A stretch of DNA of 64,000 nt from assembly GCA_017961585.1 (NCBI GenBank), contig JAGCWX010000028.1:1-64000 (forward strand), in the 5' to 3' direction. This document shows, one piece after another, positions 6,971-36,057 of this stretch; position 1 is the stretch's first letter, and every line of letters begins with the position of its first letter. The position numbers and the translations under genes were made by a program. The notes beneath the pieces were generated by a model. That model was not told where the DNA came from. It searched no databases and saw only the letters and a program-made list of their open reading frames with translations. The DNA comes from Elusimicrobiaceae bacterium. GTDB lineage: Bacteria > Elusimicrobiota > Elusimicrobia > Elusimicrobiales > Elusimicrobiaceae.

Positions 6971-6983
6971 ACAATCCCCAACT

Positions 6984-7015
6984 AAAAGCCCCCGGTTTTT
7001 GCCGGGGGCTTTTTT
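6984..7015 (+). terminator. Terminator after the ACT-domain gene
   Basis: AGCCCCCGG and CCGGGGGCT form a strong stem with flanking A and T runs. It lies between convergent genes and probably serves both strands. Confidence 0.9.
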
Positions 7016-7030
7016 GTGTTTGCAAAAAAC

Positions 7031-7813
7031 TTAAAACTCTATCACCATCATGCTTGGCGTGATAAGGCACCAAAAATTTACCAGTGCTCCCAAGCTTAAA
7101 AAGGGACCGAAGGGAATCGCTTCGTTAACTTGTTTGCCGCGGCGAATCATTACAAAAAGCGCGTACACCAAACCAAAGAAAGAGCCCATCACCACGGTGG
7201 TAATGACGCCTTGCCATCCAATGAGCGAGCCAATCCCCGCCATCAGTTTGACGTCTCCGCCGCCCATGGCCTCTTTTTTAAATAGCCATGTGCCGATAAG
7301 GGCAATAGCCAGTACGCCAAAAAGCCCAACTCCGGCCCCTAACAGTGAGGCCAATTCCTTTTCCCACCATAGGCCCGAGAAATTAGGATTGCACCACGCA
7401 AATGCTACCCCCAGCACAATCATCCCCAAGGAAAACCGATCCGGGATGATCATCAACTGCAAGTCAATAACGGATAAAATAATTAGGAAGTATACGGCTG
7501 TTAAGAGCACAAACGTCCAAATACTTAATCCGTATTTCCACACAAATAATACGGTGAGTAGCCCGGTTAATAATTCAACCAGCGGATATTGCCAAGAAAT
7601 AGGCGCTTTGCAGTGGCGGCATTTCCCCCGTAAGAACAAGAAACTAAGTACGGGGATATTATCGTACCACCGGATGTGATTATTACACTTGGGGCAAAAA
7701 GAACCCGGCCACACAATGGATTTATTTTGCGGAATACGGTAAATACATACGTTAAAAAAACTCCCCAAAATAAGCCCAAAAACACCGGCTAACACTAAGC
7801 TAAGCGTTTGCAT
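7031..7813 (-). CDS. pilD: Prepilin leader peptidase / N-methyltransferase PilD
   Basis: 260 residues, polytopic membrane protein of family A24. The cytoplasmic zinc loop carries two CxxC pairs (CPKC, CRHC). The two catalytic aspartates are in [11 protein letters not shown] and in the GxGD-type motif MGGGDVKL. It cuts class III leaders before the FTLIE sequence and methylates the new N-terminus. It is the only such enzyme in the window and presumably serves all eight pilin-like genes here. It is the last gene of a minus-strand run Nif3-M20-pseudopilin-pilD and starts 12 bases after the pseudopilin stop, with an AGGAG site. Confidence 0.96.
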
Positions 7814-18641: not shown

Positions 18642-19457
18642 CTAACACTTGGGAGCACTTGCCGGACAATGCCCGCCGGATTGTTCCTCACAGCAACTTG
18701 TTTCATCGTATTCTCCCTCACAATGATTGCTCCCAGCAGTACCGGATACAACACATCGCGAACCATTTGTAAACGTACTGTTAGAACAGGAACCATCCCC
18801 GTAAGCGGCATAACATGTGCTATTATCAAATGTGGACCCAGAACATCCACTGTACCAGGAGTAAAAAGCTATACACTCAGCTCCCTCCGTAAATAACGAA
18901 TTCACACAGAAATCCGTGGCAGCAAGAGATCCATCGCATTGAGTAGAAGATCCTGAAAAAGTATCCCGGTAAGCGGGTGCAAAATTTCCCGTGCTATTTC
19001 CATTAAGCAAATACAGCAAGTAATCCCCATTTTCAGTAGGGTCCGCCTGAGCACCTTCCGCCACGCAGAGGGATTTGGCCTGCTCATCCGTAGATAGTGC
19101 TTCACAATAAATGTTGTTGGCAAAGTTTTCACTATGAGCCAAGTACATGGTATAGCTGTTGTTTAATTTATCGTGATTAACACGTACATAATCGTGCCCG
19201 TCCACTTCGCCTATTTCCACATCTACCTCTTCCGGAATATCTATGGCCAAGTCAGGCAATGCACTTTCGTCTGCATAGTAACCGTGTTCCTCAAAGTAGA
19301 ATTCTTGCGCATCTTTAACCGCTTTTGCAATTGGTTTTAAAGAGGCAAATCTGCTTTTCATTACCGCTTTTTGATATTGCGGCAACGCCACCGCCGACAA
19401 AATACCAATAATTAATACTACTACTAATAATTCAATTAATGTGAACCCTGTTTTCAT
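18642..19457 (-). CDS. Type IV pilin-like protein with cysteine-repeat tail
   Basis: 271 residues. Leader MKTG, then FTLIE with Glu5 and the invariant hydrophobic helix. The head (to about residue 160) closely matches the pilins at 3565 and 35068 (SLKPIAKAVKDAQEFYFEEHGYY in part, LNNSYTMYLAHSENFANN). The tail has Cys repeats such as SCSNSTFTNGSRC and GCSGSTFDNSTC and ends in ETSCCEEQ. An AGGAGG site lies 8 nt before the ATG. The promoter at 19487-19534 belongs to the pilin promoter family. No pilus assembly genes are adjacent. Confidence 0.93.
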   Translation of the reverse strand: MKTGFTLIELLVVVLIIGILSAVALPQYQKAVMKSRFASLKPIAKAVKDAQEFYFEEHGYYADESALPDLAIDIPEEVDVEIGEVDGHDYVRVNHDKLNNSYTMYLAHSENFANNIYCEALSTDEQAKSLCVAEGAQADPTENGDYLLYLLNGNSTGNFAPAYRDTFSGSSTQCDGSLAATDFCVNSLFTEGAECIAFYSWYSGCSGSTFDNSTCYAAYGDGSCSNSTFTNGSRCVVSGTAGSNHCEGEYDETSCCEEQSGGHCPASAPKC

Positions 19458-24565: not shown

Positions 24566-24597
24566 AAGCACGCATTGAAAAATGCGTGCTTTTTTAT
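24566..24597 (+). terminator. Terminator of hppA
   Basis: An 11-bp stem AAGCACGCATT/AATGCGTGCTT closes a GAAA loop and runs into six T. The -35 box of the next promoter lies inside it. Confidence 0.92.
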
Positions 24598-24603
24598 TAT
24601 ACT
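24575..24603 (+). promoter_or_regulatory. Promoter for the structured RNA and pilin at 24.6-26.0 kb
   Basis: TTGAAA (24575-24580), a 17-base spacer and TATACT (24598-24603). The -35 box is formed by the loop and last stem bases of the hppA terminator. Transcription would start near 24610, just before the first conserved block of the RNA. No other good promoter is seen before the pilin ATG. Confidence 0.65.
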
Positions 24604-24613
24604 ATAGATACAA

Positions 24614-24812
24614 TTTGATCTGTTTTTGGAACCGTATGTAAGCATACGGAGGGCTGAAAAGCACTAGCGATCTCCAAAAATAGCCGATTAGGCACAACAC
24701 AGGCAGCTTAATTACCTGCTTATGTTGTGCCGAGTGTTTGTCCCACAGCGGGCAAGCCACGGCTGTTTTGGTTAGACACTGATCGCTAGGTCTAAACATA
24801 TCGGCCGTTTTT
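24614..24812 (+). ncRNA. Structured leader RNA of unknown class, copy 1
   Basis: Shares conserved blocks with 34824-35030 (ATCTGTTTTTGGAACCGTA, GCCGA-TAGGCA, CACGGCTGT-like, GCCGTTTTTG) while the intervening helices differ in sequence but keep pairing. Helices: 24621-24629 with 24674-24682; 24632-24638 with 24643-24649; 24664-24672 with 24781-24789 (9 bp, long range); 24691-24699 with 24723-24731. The 3' end is CGGCTG (24760-24765) with CGGCCG (24802-24807) then five T, an intrinsic-terminator shape. AGCCG at 24682-24686 can compete for CGGCT. It lies 59 nt before a pilin ATG in the same direction. I do not recognise it as a known RNA family. Confidence 0.8.
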
Positions 24813-24871
24813 GTTGGGTTTCATAAACAGTAAATTGAAAAATTAGGTCGAAAATCAAGGAGAAAAAGTTT

Positions 24872-26014
24872 ATGAGAAGCACAAAAAGAGGGTTTACCCT
24901 CATTGAATTATTAATCGTTGTACTCATCATTGGTATTTTAGCGGCGGTGGCGTTGCCGCAATATCAAAAAGCCATTTTAAAAAGCCGATTTAGTACTATG
25001 TTCGACCTAACCAAAGCCGTACGCGACGCACAGGAACGATTTTACTTGGCACATGATTATTATGAGGATGAATTGGGCGAGTTGGATGTTCTATCCGCCA
25101 CTGGGCAAACGGCTACTTTGTCGGACGGCTCCCAACTAAAATTGGGCGTTGAAGCCAATCATATTTATGTAAAGACCAGTTCCCCTAAACTAAACAATAC
25201 GCTTGTAATGTATCAGGATCACAGCCCCAATTTCCCCGGAGAAATCCACTGTGAAGCTTTGCAAGAAGACGATCTAGCCAATTGGCTATGCGAAAAAAGT
25301 TTAGGTGGAACCTATATTGGGGACAAATACGGTTACTCCATTTATGCCTTAAATACCGAAGATCCCAACGGCACATTCGGCCGCACACAATATAATGTAA
25401 CCACAGCCAAAACATACACAGATGGAGATATTTGCCAAGGGGACCGGAAAAATACTTGCCGCGGCGGAACCCATAAAAATAATTCCAGGTGTATTGGAAA
25501 CGCGGATTATGCATGCGATGGAACCGTCAAATTATTTAATTCTACTTGTGAAGGGAATGCCTATGTAGCGTGCCGCAACGTAGAGGCAAAAGATTATTCC
25601 ACTTGTGAAAGCAATGTAGGGTCCACCTGCTACTGGGCCACCTTTGAAAATCACTCCACCTGCAAGGGAATTGCATGCTTAGGAAATAATTATGACAAAT
25701 ACTCCGTGTGCGAATCCGAAGCAAGTGGGGCTTGCAACGCCATGGACACTTATGGTCATGGTCCTTCCTATTACACAGATCATTCCTCTTGCATAGGTAA
25801 CTATGCCAATTCTTGCAAAGGGAATAATGTTTTCAACAATTATTCTACGTGCGAGGCCAAAGTTACCGGCGCTTGCAGCGGGGCCCATTATGATGATACT
25901 AGCTACTGCACCGGAGATTTCTGCCCGAATGGGGCCCGCACCTCAACCGGCCAAACTTGGTGCCGAGATAGCAAATGGGCCGCTACCAAAAAATCTGAGG
26001 TATGCTCCAACTAA
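24872..26014 (+). CDS. Long pilin-like protein with about nine cysteine repeats
   Basis: 380 residues. Leader MRSTKRG, cleavage before FTLIE, Glu5 present, standard hydrophobic helix. The head (to about residue 175) is a divergent relative of the other pilins (AVRDAQERFYLAHDYY, LNNTLVMYQDHSPNFPGE in part). From about residue 180 to the end there are roughly nine repeats of the type F-x-N-x-STC-x-GN-x4-AC, each with two Cys, suggesting a disulfide-laddered extension. AAGGAG lies 9 nt before the ATG. It follows structured RNA copy 1 without an obvious promoter of its own, so its expression probably depends on reading through that RNA. Confidence 0.92.
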   Translation: MRSTKRGFTLIELLIVVLIIGILAAVALPQYQKAILKSRFSTMFDLTKAVRDAQERFYLAHDYYEDELGELDVLSATGQTATLSDGSQLKLGVEANHIYVKTSSPKLNNTLVMYQDHSPNFPGEIHCEALQEDDLANWLCEKSLGGTYIGDKYGYSIYALNTEDPNGTFGRTQYNVTTAKTYTDGDICQGDRKNTCRGGTHKNNSRCIGNADYACDGTVKLFNSTCEGNAYVACRNVEAKDYSTCESNVGSTCYWATFENHSTCKGIACLGNNYDKYSVCESEASGACNAMDTYGHGPSYYTDHSSCIGNYANSCKGNNVFNNYSTCEAKVTGACSGAHYDDTSYCTGDFCPNGARTSTGQTWCRDSKWAATKKSEVCSN

Positions 26015-26050: not shown

Positions 26051-26581
26051 CTAGCTGCAAATTCCGAATTCTAGTGCATCTTCTGACAAAGATCCTTTCC
26101 ACCATGGGCAAATCAACTCTTCCGGATCTGCACCATCAAGAGCCCAAGGAGAAGTAACAGAGTCTTTGGACCAATTGATAAATCCAGATCCATTATTTAG
26201 CCAGGGAATAACGCCTTCTACTACTGTATCAAACTCAATTCTACATCTGGCTAGTCCACAGGAAACATACCACCCCCCCAAAGGGGTATAACAATGGGCC
26301 TCACCACATTCGGTCCAGGGCAAATCTATATCCAGTGTCCCAGTAGCATGGGGTCCTAAGAATTTAATGGTGTCTTCATTAGGTATACCATTTTCCAGGA
26401 TCCATAAATCGGTAGCTTTAGATAGTGTATTGAACGTAAGTTGTACATCAGCTAACCGTGCCTTAGTTACTGCTTTTTGATATTGTGGCAACGCCACCGC
26501 CGCCAAAATGCCAATGATTAAGACTACGACTAATAATTCTATTAGTGTAAAGCCTAAACGGCTTTGTACTGCTTGTTTCAT
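26051..26581 (-). CDS. Short type IV pilin-like protein
   Basis: 176 residues. Leader MKQAVQSRLG, cut before FTLIE, Glu5 present. The head (LSKATDLWILENGIPNEDT in part, then FLG, LDIDLPWTECGEAHC) matches the layout of the pilin at 43701 ([24 protein letters not shown]), so the two form a second pilin subfamily without the F-x-N-x-C repeat tail. Six Cys in the head probably form disulfides. The frame is open 96 bases further upstream, but the AAGGAG site 7 nt before 26581 fixes the start. It is convergent with the long pilin at 24872. Confidence 0.92.
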   Translation of the reverse strand: MKQAVQSRLGFTLIELLVVVLIIGILAAVALPQYQKAVTKARLADVQLTFNTLSKATDLWILENGIPNEDTIKFLGPHATGTLDIDLPWTECGEAHCYTPLGGWYVSCGLARCRIEFDTVVEGVIPWLNNGSGFINWSKDSVTSPWALDGADPEELICPWWKGSLSEDALEFGICS

Positions 26582-26729
26582 AAGCTCTCCTTGTGTTTTA
26601 ATGGTTTGGAAAAAAATAGTATATGAAAAAAAAAACAAGTCAATCTTTTTTAAAACAATGACGTAAAAATGTAACATCCCCCAGTGTTAACCTGAGGGAT
26701 GTTTGTGGGACAAACAATTTTTCCAAACG

Positions 26730-34823: not shown

Positions 34824-35030
34824 TTTAATCTGTTTTTGGAACCGTAGCAGATACGGTGGGCTTTTAATAAATTAAGAGTTCAGTTGAAGTCCAGAAACAG
34901 CCGAACTAGGCATAAAATAAAAGAACTTATAATCCTTTTATTTTATGCCCAATGTTTACCGTGTAAACGGTAAGCTACGGCTGTAATGGTAGAGATCCCT
35001 TCAACTGGCTCGACTATTGTAGCCGTTTTT
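34824..35030 (+). ncRNA. Structured leader RNA of unknown class, copy 2
   Basis: Same conserved blocks and order as 24614-24812, with different helix sequences that still pair: 34831-34839 with 34891-34899; 34841-34846 with 34852-34857; 34881-34889 with 34999-35007 (9 bp, long range); 34909-34923 with 34935-34949 (15 bp perfect); 34956-34962 with 34966-34972 (7 bp, loop GTAA). The 3' end pairs CGGCT (34978-34982) with AGCCG (35021-35025) before five T, and an upstream AGCCG (34899-34903) can pair with the same CGGCT. It ends 37 nt before the pilin ATG at 35068. Confidence 0.8.
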
Positions 35031-35067
35031 GCATGTATTTTTTCCAAAAACAAATAAGGAGAAATCT

Positions 35068-36057
35068 ATGCAAAAAGAAAATGTAACAAACAAAGCTTTA
35101 TTTGATATCCCCCTCACCTGCCCTGCAAAATCCCTCAAGGGCGAGGGGATCCCTTCCACCTTGAGGGGGAAGGTGGCCGAAAGCTGGATGAAGGGGCACC
35201 GCTTTGGGTTCACGCTCATTGAGCTCTTGGTCGTCGTCCTTATCATCGGCATCTTAGCCGCCGTAGCATTGCCGCAATACCAAAAAGCCGTTATGAAAAG
35301 TAGATTTGCGTCCTTAAAGCCGATTGCAAAATCGATTAAAGATGCGCAAGAATTTTATTTTGAAGAACACGGTTACTATGCGGAAGAGGACGAATTACCC
35401 GGCTTGGTTATAGATATCCCGGAAGGGGTAGATGTGGAATTAAGCGAAACGGACGGGCACGATTATGTGCGCGTTAATCACAGTAATTTAAACAACAGCT
35501 ACACGATGTATTTGGCCCACAGCGAAAACTTTGCCAACAATGTTTATTGTGAAGCGCTGGCAACAGATGAGCAAGCCCAATCCCTCTGTGTGGCAGAAGG
35601 TACTATTGCAGATCCTATCACAAACGGAGATTATTTGCTGTATTTATTAAGCGGGAATAGCACCGGAGAATTTTCTGTTGCCATGTCGTACACTCCGTGG
35701 ACCACTTGGGGTTGTCAATCTGAAGAATTTCACAGCCATTATTGTTCGGGGTTTTTATATGACGGAAGCCAAGGAGTTAGCGGATGCGGTGCCATGGGAG
35801 CTCCCGGTTGTTCAGATTCGGCTTTTACAAACGGAGCCAGTTGCTTCGCAAGAGAAATGAATTCTTGTAATAATACCCATTTTGATGCCTCTACCTGTGA
35901 AGCAAGTTCGAGTGACAGTTGCCAAGGGACTTTTACAAACGGCTCGACTTGTATTGCTAAGGTATCCGGCGGATGCGACCAGGGCACCTACAAAGATACA
36001 AGCTGTTGTGAAGATAACGGTACCGGTTATTGCGGCAGCAACGTACCACATTGTTAA
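35068..36057 (+). CDS. Type IV pilin-like protein with long leader and cysteine-repeat tail
   Basis: 329 residues from 35068. An AAGGAG site lies 7 nt upstream, but the cleavage site G-FTLIE comes only after 47 residues, far beyond normal prepilin leaders, because a palindromic DNA element (35109-35200) is embedded in the leader. An internal ATG at 35188 (MKGHRFG-FTLIE) would give a normal 7-residue leader, with a purine-rich stretch upstream. The head matches the pilins at 3565 and 18642, and the tail has Cys repeats (SAFTNGASC, THFDASTC, GTFTNGSTC) ending in DTSCCEDN. It is preceded by structured RNA copy 2. Confidence 0.88.
   Translation: MQKENVTNKALFDIPLTCPAKSLKGEGIPSTLRGKVAESWMKGHRFGFTLIELLVVVLIIGILAAVALPQYQKAVMKSRFASLKPIAKSIKDAQEFYFEEHGYYAEEDELPGLVIDIPEGVDVELSETDGHDYVRVNHSNLNNSYTMYLAHSENFANNVYCEALATDEQAQSLCVAEGTIADPITNGDYLLYLLSGNSTGEFSVAMSYTPWTTWGCQSEEFHSHYCSGFLYDGSQGVSGCGAMGAPGCSDSAFTNGASCFAREMNSCNNTHFDASTCEASSSDSCQGTFTNGSTCIAKVSGGCDQGTYKDTSCCEDNGTGYCGSNVPHC
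35109..35200. repeat. Palindromic repeat element inside the pilin leader
   Basis: CCCTCAAGG and CCTTGAGGG (35132-35140, 35159-35167) and CCACCTT/AAGGTGG form nested inverted repeats; the outer ends (CCCCTCA, TGAAGGGG) are also roughly complementary. It is in frame with the pilin and both strands read through. It resembles coding-compatible palindromic elements seen in many bacterial genomes. Confidence 0.65.

Follow-up and report, generated by a model that had tools for sequence, protein, structure and literature searches.

In T-box leaders and in protein- or tRNA-dependent attenuators, a terminator and an antiterminator helix exclude each other and share one strand, and the cGAMP riboswitches of the GEMM-Ib group are linked to pilin-type genes. 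The cGAMP-binding riboswitches of Geobacter are GEMM-Ib RNAs (PMC8835794), and the Bc1 c-di-GMP-I riboswitch of Bacillus thuringiensis is reported to combine transcriptional with translational control (PMC11218506). The Termite-flg and Termite-leu motifs are held in Rfam as RF01729 and RF01730 (PMC2864571). The leaders described here come from a window of 64,000 nt, the whole stretch of DNA that was analysed (contig JAGCWX010000028.1, assembly GCA_017961585.1, an Elusimicrobiaceae bacterium of gut or rumen type), and they share features with each of these systems. Like the c-di-GMP-I riboswitches, a wider class that regulates surface and motility genes, they are 5' leaders with an intrinsic terminator; their helices differ, however, they match no Rfam riboswitch in sequence or structure, and they occur with up to about 130 matches per genome. 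Like GEMM-Ib, they stand before genes for pili or surface structures in many copies per genome, but with a different fold, in a different phylum and again with no Rfam match. The arrangement of exclusive terminator and antiterminator helices around a common strand is that of T-box leaders and protein- or tRNA-dependent attenuators; in contrast to those, the genes downstream are surface genes rather than amino-acid genes, and a leader ORF is not conserved. The best partial match to the T-box family (RF00230) reached 12.9 bits against a cut-off of 93, and there was none in the window. Termite-flg and Termite-leu are likewise structured RNAs that came from comparative genomics, and their termite-gut habitat is shared with Endomicrobia; neither was matched in Rfam scans of the window and related loci.

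By sequence and predicted fold, the leaders of two prepilin genes in the window (Table 1) are both members of an uncatalogued family of folded RNAs of ~200 nt that lie before pilin and other cell-surface genes. We read the element as a family of cis-acting attenuator RNAs, 5' leaders that would determine whether polymerase continues into the surface gene behind them, in most cases one for a pilin (probability roughly 0.78). The parts of the leader follow each other in the order a - P2 - P3 - PKa - b - P4 - P5 - c - PKb - d-UUUUU - e - f(SD/AUG). An earlier note on this DNA had proposed that in both copies CGGCT can pair either with a downstream GCCG, as a terminator followed by five T, or with an upstream AGCCG. 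All of these elements lie where the note had placed them, both in copy 1 (CGGCT 24760-24764, AGCCG 24682-24686, GCCG within CGGCCG 24802-24807, five T 24808-24812) and in copy 2 (CGGCT 34978-34982, AGCCG 34899-34903, TAGCCG 35020-35025, five T 35026-35030). The terminator is present, but its stem is much longer than was claimed: 19 nt with 79% complementarity in copy 1 (24759-24777/24790-24808) and 18 nt with 78% complementarity in copy 2 (34977-34994/35009-35026). The upstream pairing is also present, but it is really 7 bp long (ACAGYCG/CGGCUGU) and is flanked by a 9-bp helix, PKa/PKb, which had gone unmentioned. The full antiterminator, a post-terminator hairpin over the Shine-Dalgarno sequence and AUG, and the family-wide distribution go beyond that note.

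Table 1. Features of the two leader copies and their genes in the 64,000-nt window.
Feature	Positions	Strand	Remarks
Promoter-like site of copy 1, TTGAAA-17-TATACT	24575..24603	+	10/12 consensus positions; no more than suggestive, as chance alone would give ~0.7 such sites in this region
Switch RNA copy 1, whole model match	24618..24812	+	covariance model R1 159.2 bits, R2 164.5 bits
Strand a, copy 1 (CUGUUUUUGGAA)	24620..24631	+	5' arm of P1; strand e also complementary
Hairpin P2, copy 1	24632..24649	+	covariation across the family
PKa, copy 1	24664..24672	+	partner 24781-24789; 9 bp, perfect; both-sided changes in 9/9 columns
Strand b, copy 1 (CCAAAAAUAGCCG)	24674..24686	+	3' arm of P1 or 5' arm of antiterminator; includes AGCCG
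Hairpin P4, copy 1, with conserved loop (CUUAAUUACC)	24691..24731	+	covariation in 16/16 pairs
Hairpin P5, copy 1	24736..24757	+	covariation in 8/8 pairs
Strand c, copy 1 (CGGCUGUUUUGG)	24760..24771	+	partner b (antiterminator) or d (terminator)
PKb, copy 1	24781..24789	+	partner of PKa; inside terminator loop
Strand d and U-run, copy 1	24790..24812	+	3' arm of terminator, then five T
Strand e, copy 1 (GGTTTCATAAACAG)	24817..24830	+	complementary to a and to the start-codon region
Strand f, copy 1	24857..24875	+	Shine-Dalgarno AAGGAG and AUG; GUUUAUGA at 24868-24875 pairs with 24821-24828 (8 bp)
Prepilin gene 1	24872..26014	+	PF07963 N_methyl, 33.6 bits
Switch RNA copy 2, whole model match	34828..35030	+	R1 164.0 bits
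PKa, copy 2	34881..34889	+	partner 34999-35007, 100% complementary
Strand b, copy 2 (UCCAGAAACAGCCG)	34890..34903	+	
Strand c, copy 2 (CGGCUGU)	34978..34984	+	7 bp with 34897-34903
Strand d and U-run, copy 2	35009..35030	+	
Strand e, copy 2 (around TTTCCAAAAACAA)	35041..35053	+	complementary to strand a of copy 2 and to the Shine-Dalgarno sequence
Shine-Dalgarno AAGGAG and AUG of pilin 2	35056..35070	+	predicted fold with e
Prepilin gene 2	35068..36057	+	PF07963 N_methyl, 31 bits

Further copies were first found by a DNA search of the window's genome, and 28 copies were used to build covariance model R1. In that genome (1.49 Mb) R1 found 6 full copies, two in the window and one each on contigs C22, C7, C33 and C18, a count that leaves out five weaker or antisense partial matches. 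The RNA was present in 57 of 61 genomes of the same genus, in 80 of 90 of the family and in 95 of 341 of the phylum, where it was confined to two families; the second model, R2, gave a near-identical distribution plus one marginal match in another family. Records that carry the RNA are labelled Elusimicrobiaceae, Elusimicrobiales, Endomicrobia or Ruminimicrobiellum. The highest numbers of matches per genome, which include some weak or antisense partial ones, were 130 (G060, 1.7 Mb), 95 (G026), 63 (G077), 54 (G040) and 53 (G085). When genome contigs were scanned with the P1 pattern, at least 120 stretches matched. Almost all of the 80 matches listed came from Elusimicrobiota or from bins with the RNA; outside Elusimicrobiota, a few taxa and 6 viral contigs among the matches listed fit no more than the short P1 palindrome and failed to match the full model. 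Shorter relatives of about 166-170 nt in two genomes (L104, L106 and L116; G298 and G305) lack P4, carry changes in every switch strand and possibly form a sister class. No riboswitch or cis-regulatory family of Rfam 15 reached its gathering score in the window, in 20 related loci or in single copies, where tRNAs alone reached the cut-off, and a search of openly accessible journal papers found no description of the RNA family.

Both copies fold more stably than expected, with z scores of -5.7 (copy 1) and -8.7 (copy 2) against 200 dinucleotide-preserving shuffles, none of which was as stable. Across the 28 copies, 51 of 71 named pairs had changes on both sides, against 31 in shuffles, and standard pairs filled 92% of cells, compared to 78% when shuffled and 37-46% when partners were slid by 1-3 columns. 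Covariation was strong in P2, P4, P5 and the 9-bp PKa/PKb helix. In P1 and at the foot of the terminator stem (CGGC/GCCG) there was hardly any variation. In 63 divergent copies, all nine PKa/PKb pairs had both-sided changes, a pairing that is absent from R1, the model that made this alignment. Several unpaired stretches are conserved as well: GGAA after P1, YCGUUUUA before P4, GAGUG between P4 and P5, and CCA before c, together with the P4 loop (CU-AU--CC).

Strand c (CGGCUGU) is complementary both to the upstream strand b (ACAGYCG) and to the downstream terminator arm d. In the 28-sequence alignment the b:c pairing was possible in 98% of cells, and in 15-65% when slid by 1-3 columns. Close relatives showed one-sided changes only, as would be expected if d also holds c. 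Because the CGGC core of strand c never varied among the 28 close copies, the evidence for b:c covariation comes from a modest number of divergent and mutually related copies. Among 170 non-redundant copies, b:c again paired in 98% of cells, and both-sided changes occurred in 11 cells against 0.5 ± 0.8 when shuffled, a count that should not be taken as a probability because these sequences share kinship. The compensatory changes in b:c often came with a matching change in d. Strands b and c changed together, with the terminator arm still able to pair, in L115 (AUAGUCA/UGGCUAU), L093 (AUAG-U-UCG/CGGCUAU), L147 (ACAACCG/CGGUUGU), L106 (AUAAUCGC/GCGAUUAU) and a copy from the window's own genome, L076 (ACAGUCG/CGACUGU); in L077 and L222 (GCGGUCA/CGACUGC) 6 of 7 pairs formed, and there too the terminator arm still pairs. 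Some Endomicrobia copies have b:c reduced to 4-6 of 7 pairs or interrupted by a 1-nt bulge. The antiterminator is longer than b:c, since the loop that follows c also pairs, with a stretch of 9-10 nt upstream of b, and 9 of 9 of these pairs covary. The proposal that the two pairings of CGGCT exclude each other thus extends, as b:c versus c:d with compensatory changes, to the whole family.

Predicted folds suggest an order in which these helices form. In transcripts cut before d, b:c was predicted in 161 of 164 copies; in the full-length RNA, c:d was predicted in 157 of 164. With each helix forced before d is made, the antiterminator beat P1 by a median of 8.8 kcal/mol and was favoured in 156 of 159 copies, although pseudoknots are ignored in these energies, and a combination of P1 with the PK pairing could be a competitor of the antiterminator. 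For copies 1 and 2, the predicted folds of cut transcripts place PKa/PKb beside b:c, in one nested helix around P4 and P5; this is why we take the PK pairing to be the antiterminator's outer half. The terminator (P6) loops measured are mostly 10-12 nt long, of which 9 nt would be held in the pairing, so that a permanent PKa/PKb pseudoknot would be strained; since the nested antiterminator would account for the PKa/PKb covariation without a knot, such a pseudoknot appears disfavoured.

As in an attenuator, sequence and predicted folds give two exclusive helices that share one strand, one of them an intrinsic terminator, and the element lies in the 5' UTR of the gene it would regulate. With the antiterminator predicted to dominate until the terminator arm is made, the riboswitch-or-attenuator logic suggested earlier holds at this level, and judged in the same way the leaders make up a new, riboswitch-like family of pilin attenuators. 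We considered a version driven by translation of a leader peptide, which would fit the ATG found in the P2 region of 74 of 178 copies. That ATG is absent from the other 104, the frames run from 1 to 58 codons, and no leader ORF is conserved among the 178 copies; we rejected this candidate and regard it as hardly credible.

The position of the leaders bears directly on how the genes would be expressed. In 155 copies with a recognisable Shine-Dalgarno sequence and ATG, the median distance from U-run to ATG was 41 nt, so in most cases the downstream gene must be read through the leader. In copy 2 the ATG at 35068 lies 37 nt past the U-run, as the earlier note had counted, and its view that pilin expression depends on read-through agrees with the typical spacing of 30-50 nt between leaders and prepilin starts, too close for another promoter. 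Prepilins followed 44 of 45 scorable copies in the copy-rich genomes G040 and G060, and in the window's genome prepilin genes (PF07963) came directly after 5 of 6. The sixth, the divergent L077 (G000:C18:73104-73331, minus strand), lies ~300 nt before a PglD-like acetyltransferase gene that is followed by a bacterial sugar transferase, a context hinting that surface glycosylation shares the switch. Elsewhere the downstream genes encode lipoproteins, exported proteins, glycosyltransferases and two methyltransferase-like proteins; for non-pilin genes, function was assigned by eye unless a Pfam search had been made.

Could the leaders instead be free-standing small RNAs that end at the terminator and act in trans, with the e sites of pilin mRNAs as the targets of strand a? 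Several copies have a promoter-like sequence just upstream, a terminator is predicted in nearly all, and strand a, which hardly varies, can base-pair by its complementarity with the UTRs of many pilins. The copies, however, are sense-oriented at their short distance before genes, and the lack of room for another promoter makes read-through necessary for expression, which counts against this explanation; the b:c alternative would also be unnecessary for such an RNA. We consider a role in trans improbable, and it could coexist with attenuator function.

Some further observations concern the genes and the DNA around the leaders. The two methyltransferase-like genes, in separate genomes, are similar to each other (KNDEFYTQLADIE..), lie behind the switch in L115 and L220, and have otherwise surface-related neighbours. 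Two further prepilin genes of the window lack this leader, at 18642-19457 and 26051-26677 (both minus strand), and the former has a promoter-like TATACT close before its Shine-Dalgarno sequence. The candidate pilins under the switch (24872-26014 and 35068-36057) carry long cysteine-rich C-terminal repeats (about C..NSTC..) that look unusual for pilins. An AGGAG-like box lies 43-55 nt upstream of strand a (e.g. in L127, L083 and L197) in 60 of 178 copies, against 18 when shuffled; mostly no start codon stands behind it, and often a hairpin then follows, between a probable -10 box and the RNA. Some hairpins upstream of the RNA have a P4-like loop (CUGAUCC).

A more specific form of the attenuator reading is that the RNA acts as a true riboswitch and senses a metabolite, such as a cyclic dinucleotide, bound at the P4-P5 junction or in the P1-P2-P3 domain; we hold the chances of this to be slightly short of even. 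Conserved unpaired junction bases (GGAA, YCGUUUUA, GAGUG and CCA) and the conserved P4 loop speak for it, as does one leader common to many unrelated surface genes. Three of the conserved unpaired stretches are joining strands of a junction that exists only with b:c, which favours that junction as a functional and perhaps sensing site. The tandem copies L103 and L115, which lie 55 nt apart (G315:C15:6740-6917 and 6973-7161) before one methyltransferase-like gene, have an arrangement known for riboswitches. The missing Rfam riboswitch match stands against this form, and so do the remote G298 and G305 copies without P4, which also keep the junction argument from being decisive. GGDEF genes were found in all 14 genomes tested, a point in favour of this form, but equally in genomes without the RNA, and we set their presence aside as an uninformative clue to the ligand.

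Beyond the terminator, the UTRs of 133 copies folded to a mean of -8.3 kcal/mol compared to -4.3 kcal/mol in shuffles. Stems with a score of at least 8, differing in sequence from copy to copy, covered the Shine-Dalgarno sequence or AUG in 37% of copies compared with 6% of shuffled UTRs; strands a and e, the latter often UUCCAAAAACAG, could form 8 or more Watson-Crick pairs in a row in 27% against 3%. By a cruder measure, the paired fraction of Shine-Dalgarno and AUG bases in the minimum-energy fold, the rise over controls was modest (0.49 vs 0.42 and 0.52 vs 0.41). In copy 1, e can pair with a at 13 of 14 positions (counted by eye, G-U included); in copy 2, e is predicted to fold onto the Shine-Dalgarno sequence and AUG. 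In many post-terminator UTRs, the Shine-Dalgarno sequence or AUG is thus likely to be buried in a hairpin; the 5' arm of this hairpin resembles b, and the 5' end of the RNA could open it. In the simplest reading of these statistics, strand a, once off b, would open the ribosome site; only about a third of copies show the a:e and e:f features clearly.

The same strands raise the question of a mobile, MITE-like repeat, with CAATTT..CTGTTTTTGGAACC and GGTTCCAAAAACAG..AAATTG as transposition ends and the structure incidental. Copy number is high in some genomes, and a and e form a terminal inverted repeat in part of the copies. Such an origin is nevertheless very improbable: orientation and distance to start codons are fixed, the copies covary internally and are divergent rather than near-identical, and e is recognisable in a minority of copies only and is also shaped to pair with the Shine-Dalgarno sequence and AUG.

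Support at sequence level covers the pairings, their conservation, their mutual exclusion and the gene position; what we infer for the attenuator is the order in which events occur, the layer of translational control and the existence of a signal. In the OFF state, a:b (P1) and c:d (the terminator) would form, and transcription would stop ~40 nt before the gene. In the ON state, PKa-b would pair with c-PKb, and this antiterminator, closing a junction with P4 and P5, would keep c from d so that polymerase continues. In many copies the mRNA made by read-through would have its Shine-Dalgarno sequence or AUG masked in a hairpin by e, which closely resembles b; with b engaged by c, the 5' strand a would be free to pair with e and uncover the ribosome site. 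The balance would be set by some signal, most likely a small ligand or protein at P2/P3 or at the P4-P5 junction.

More tentatively, and with odds of only about one in three in its favour, this may be a new riboswitch class, with a new ligand or aptamer, that the whole surface repertoire has in common as one switch (in a genome of 1.7 Mb, as many as about 100 pilin genes); the freed 5' strand would couple antitermination to opening of the ribosome site, and one signal or stochastic bistability would set which pilins are displayed. To our knowledge, the copy number per genome is far above that of any riboswitch. If the proposal is true, the leaders would provide a natural panel of more than 100 variants of one switch and a candidate new ligand class, as well as a testable case in which a single RNA strand stands behind both the transcriptional and the translational decision. 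It would also mean that Elusimicrobiota (Elusimicrobiaceae and Endomicrobia), an under-studied phylum, run many of their pilin and surface genes through RNA.
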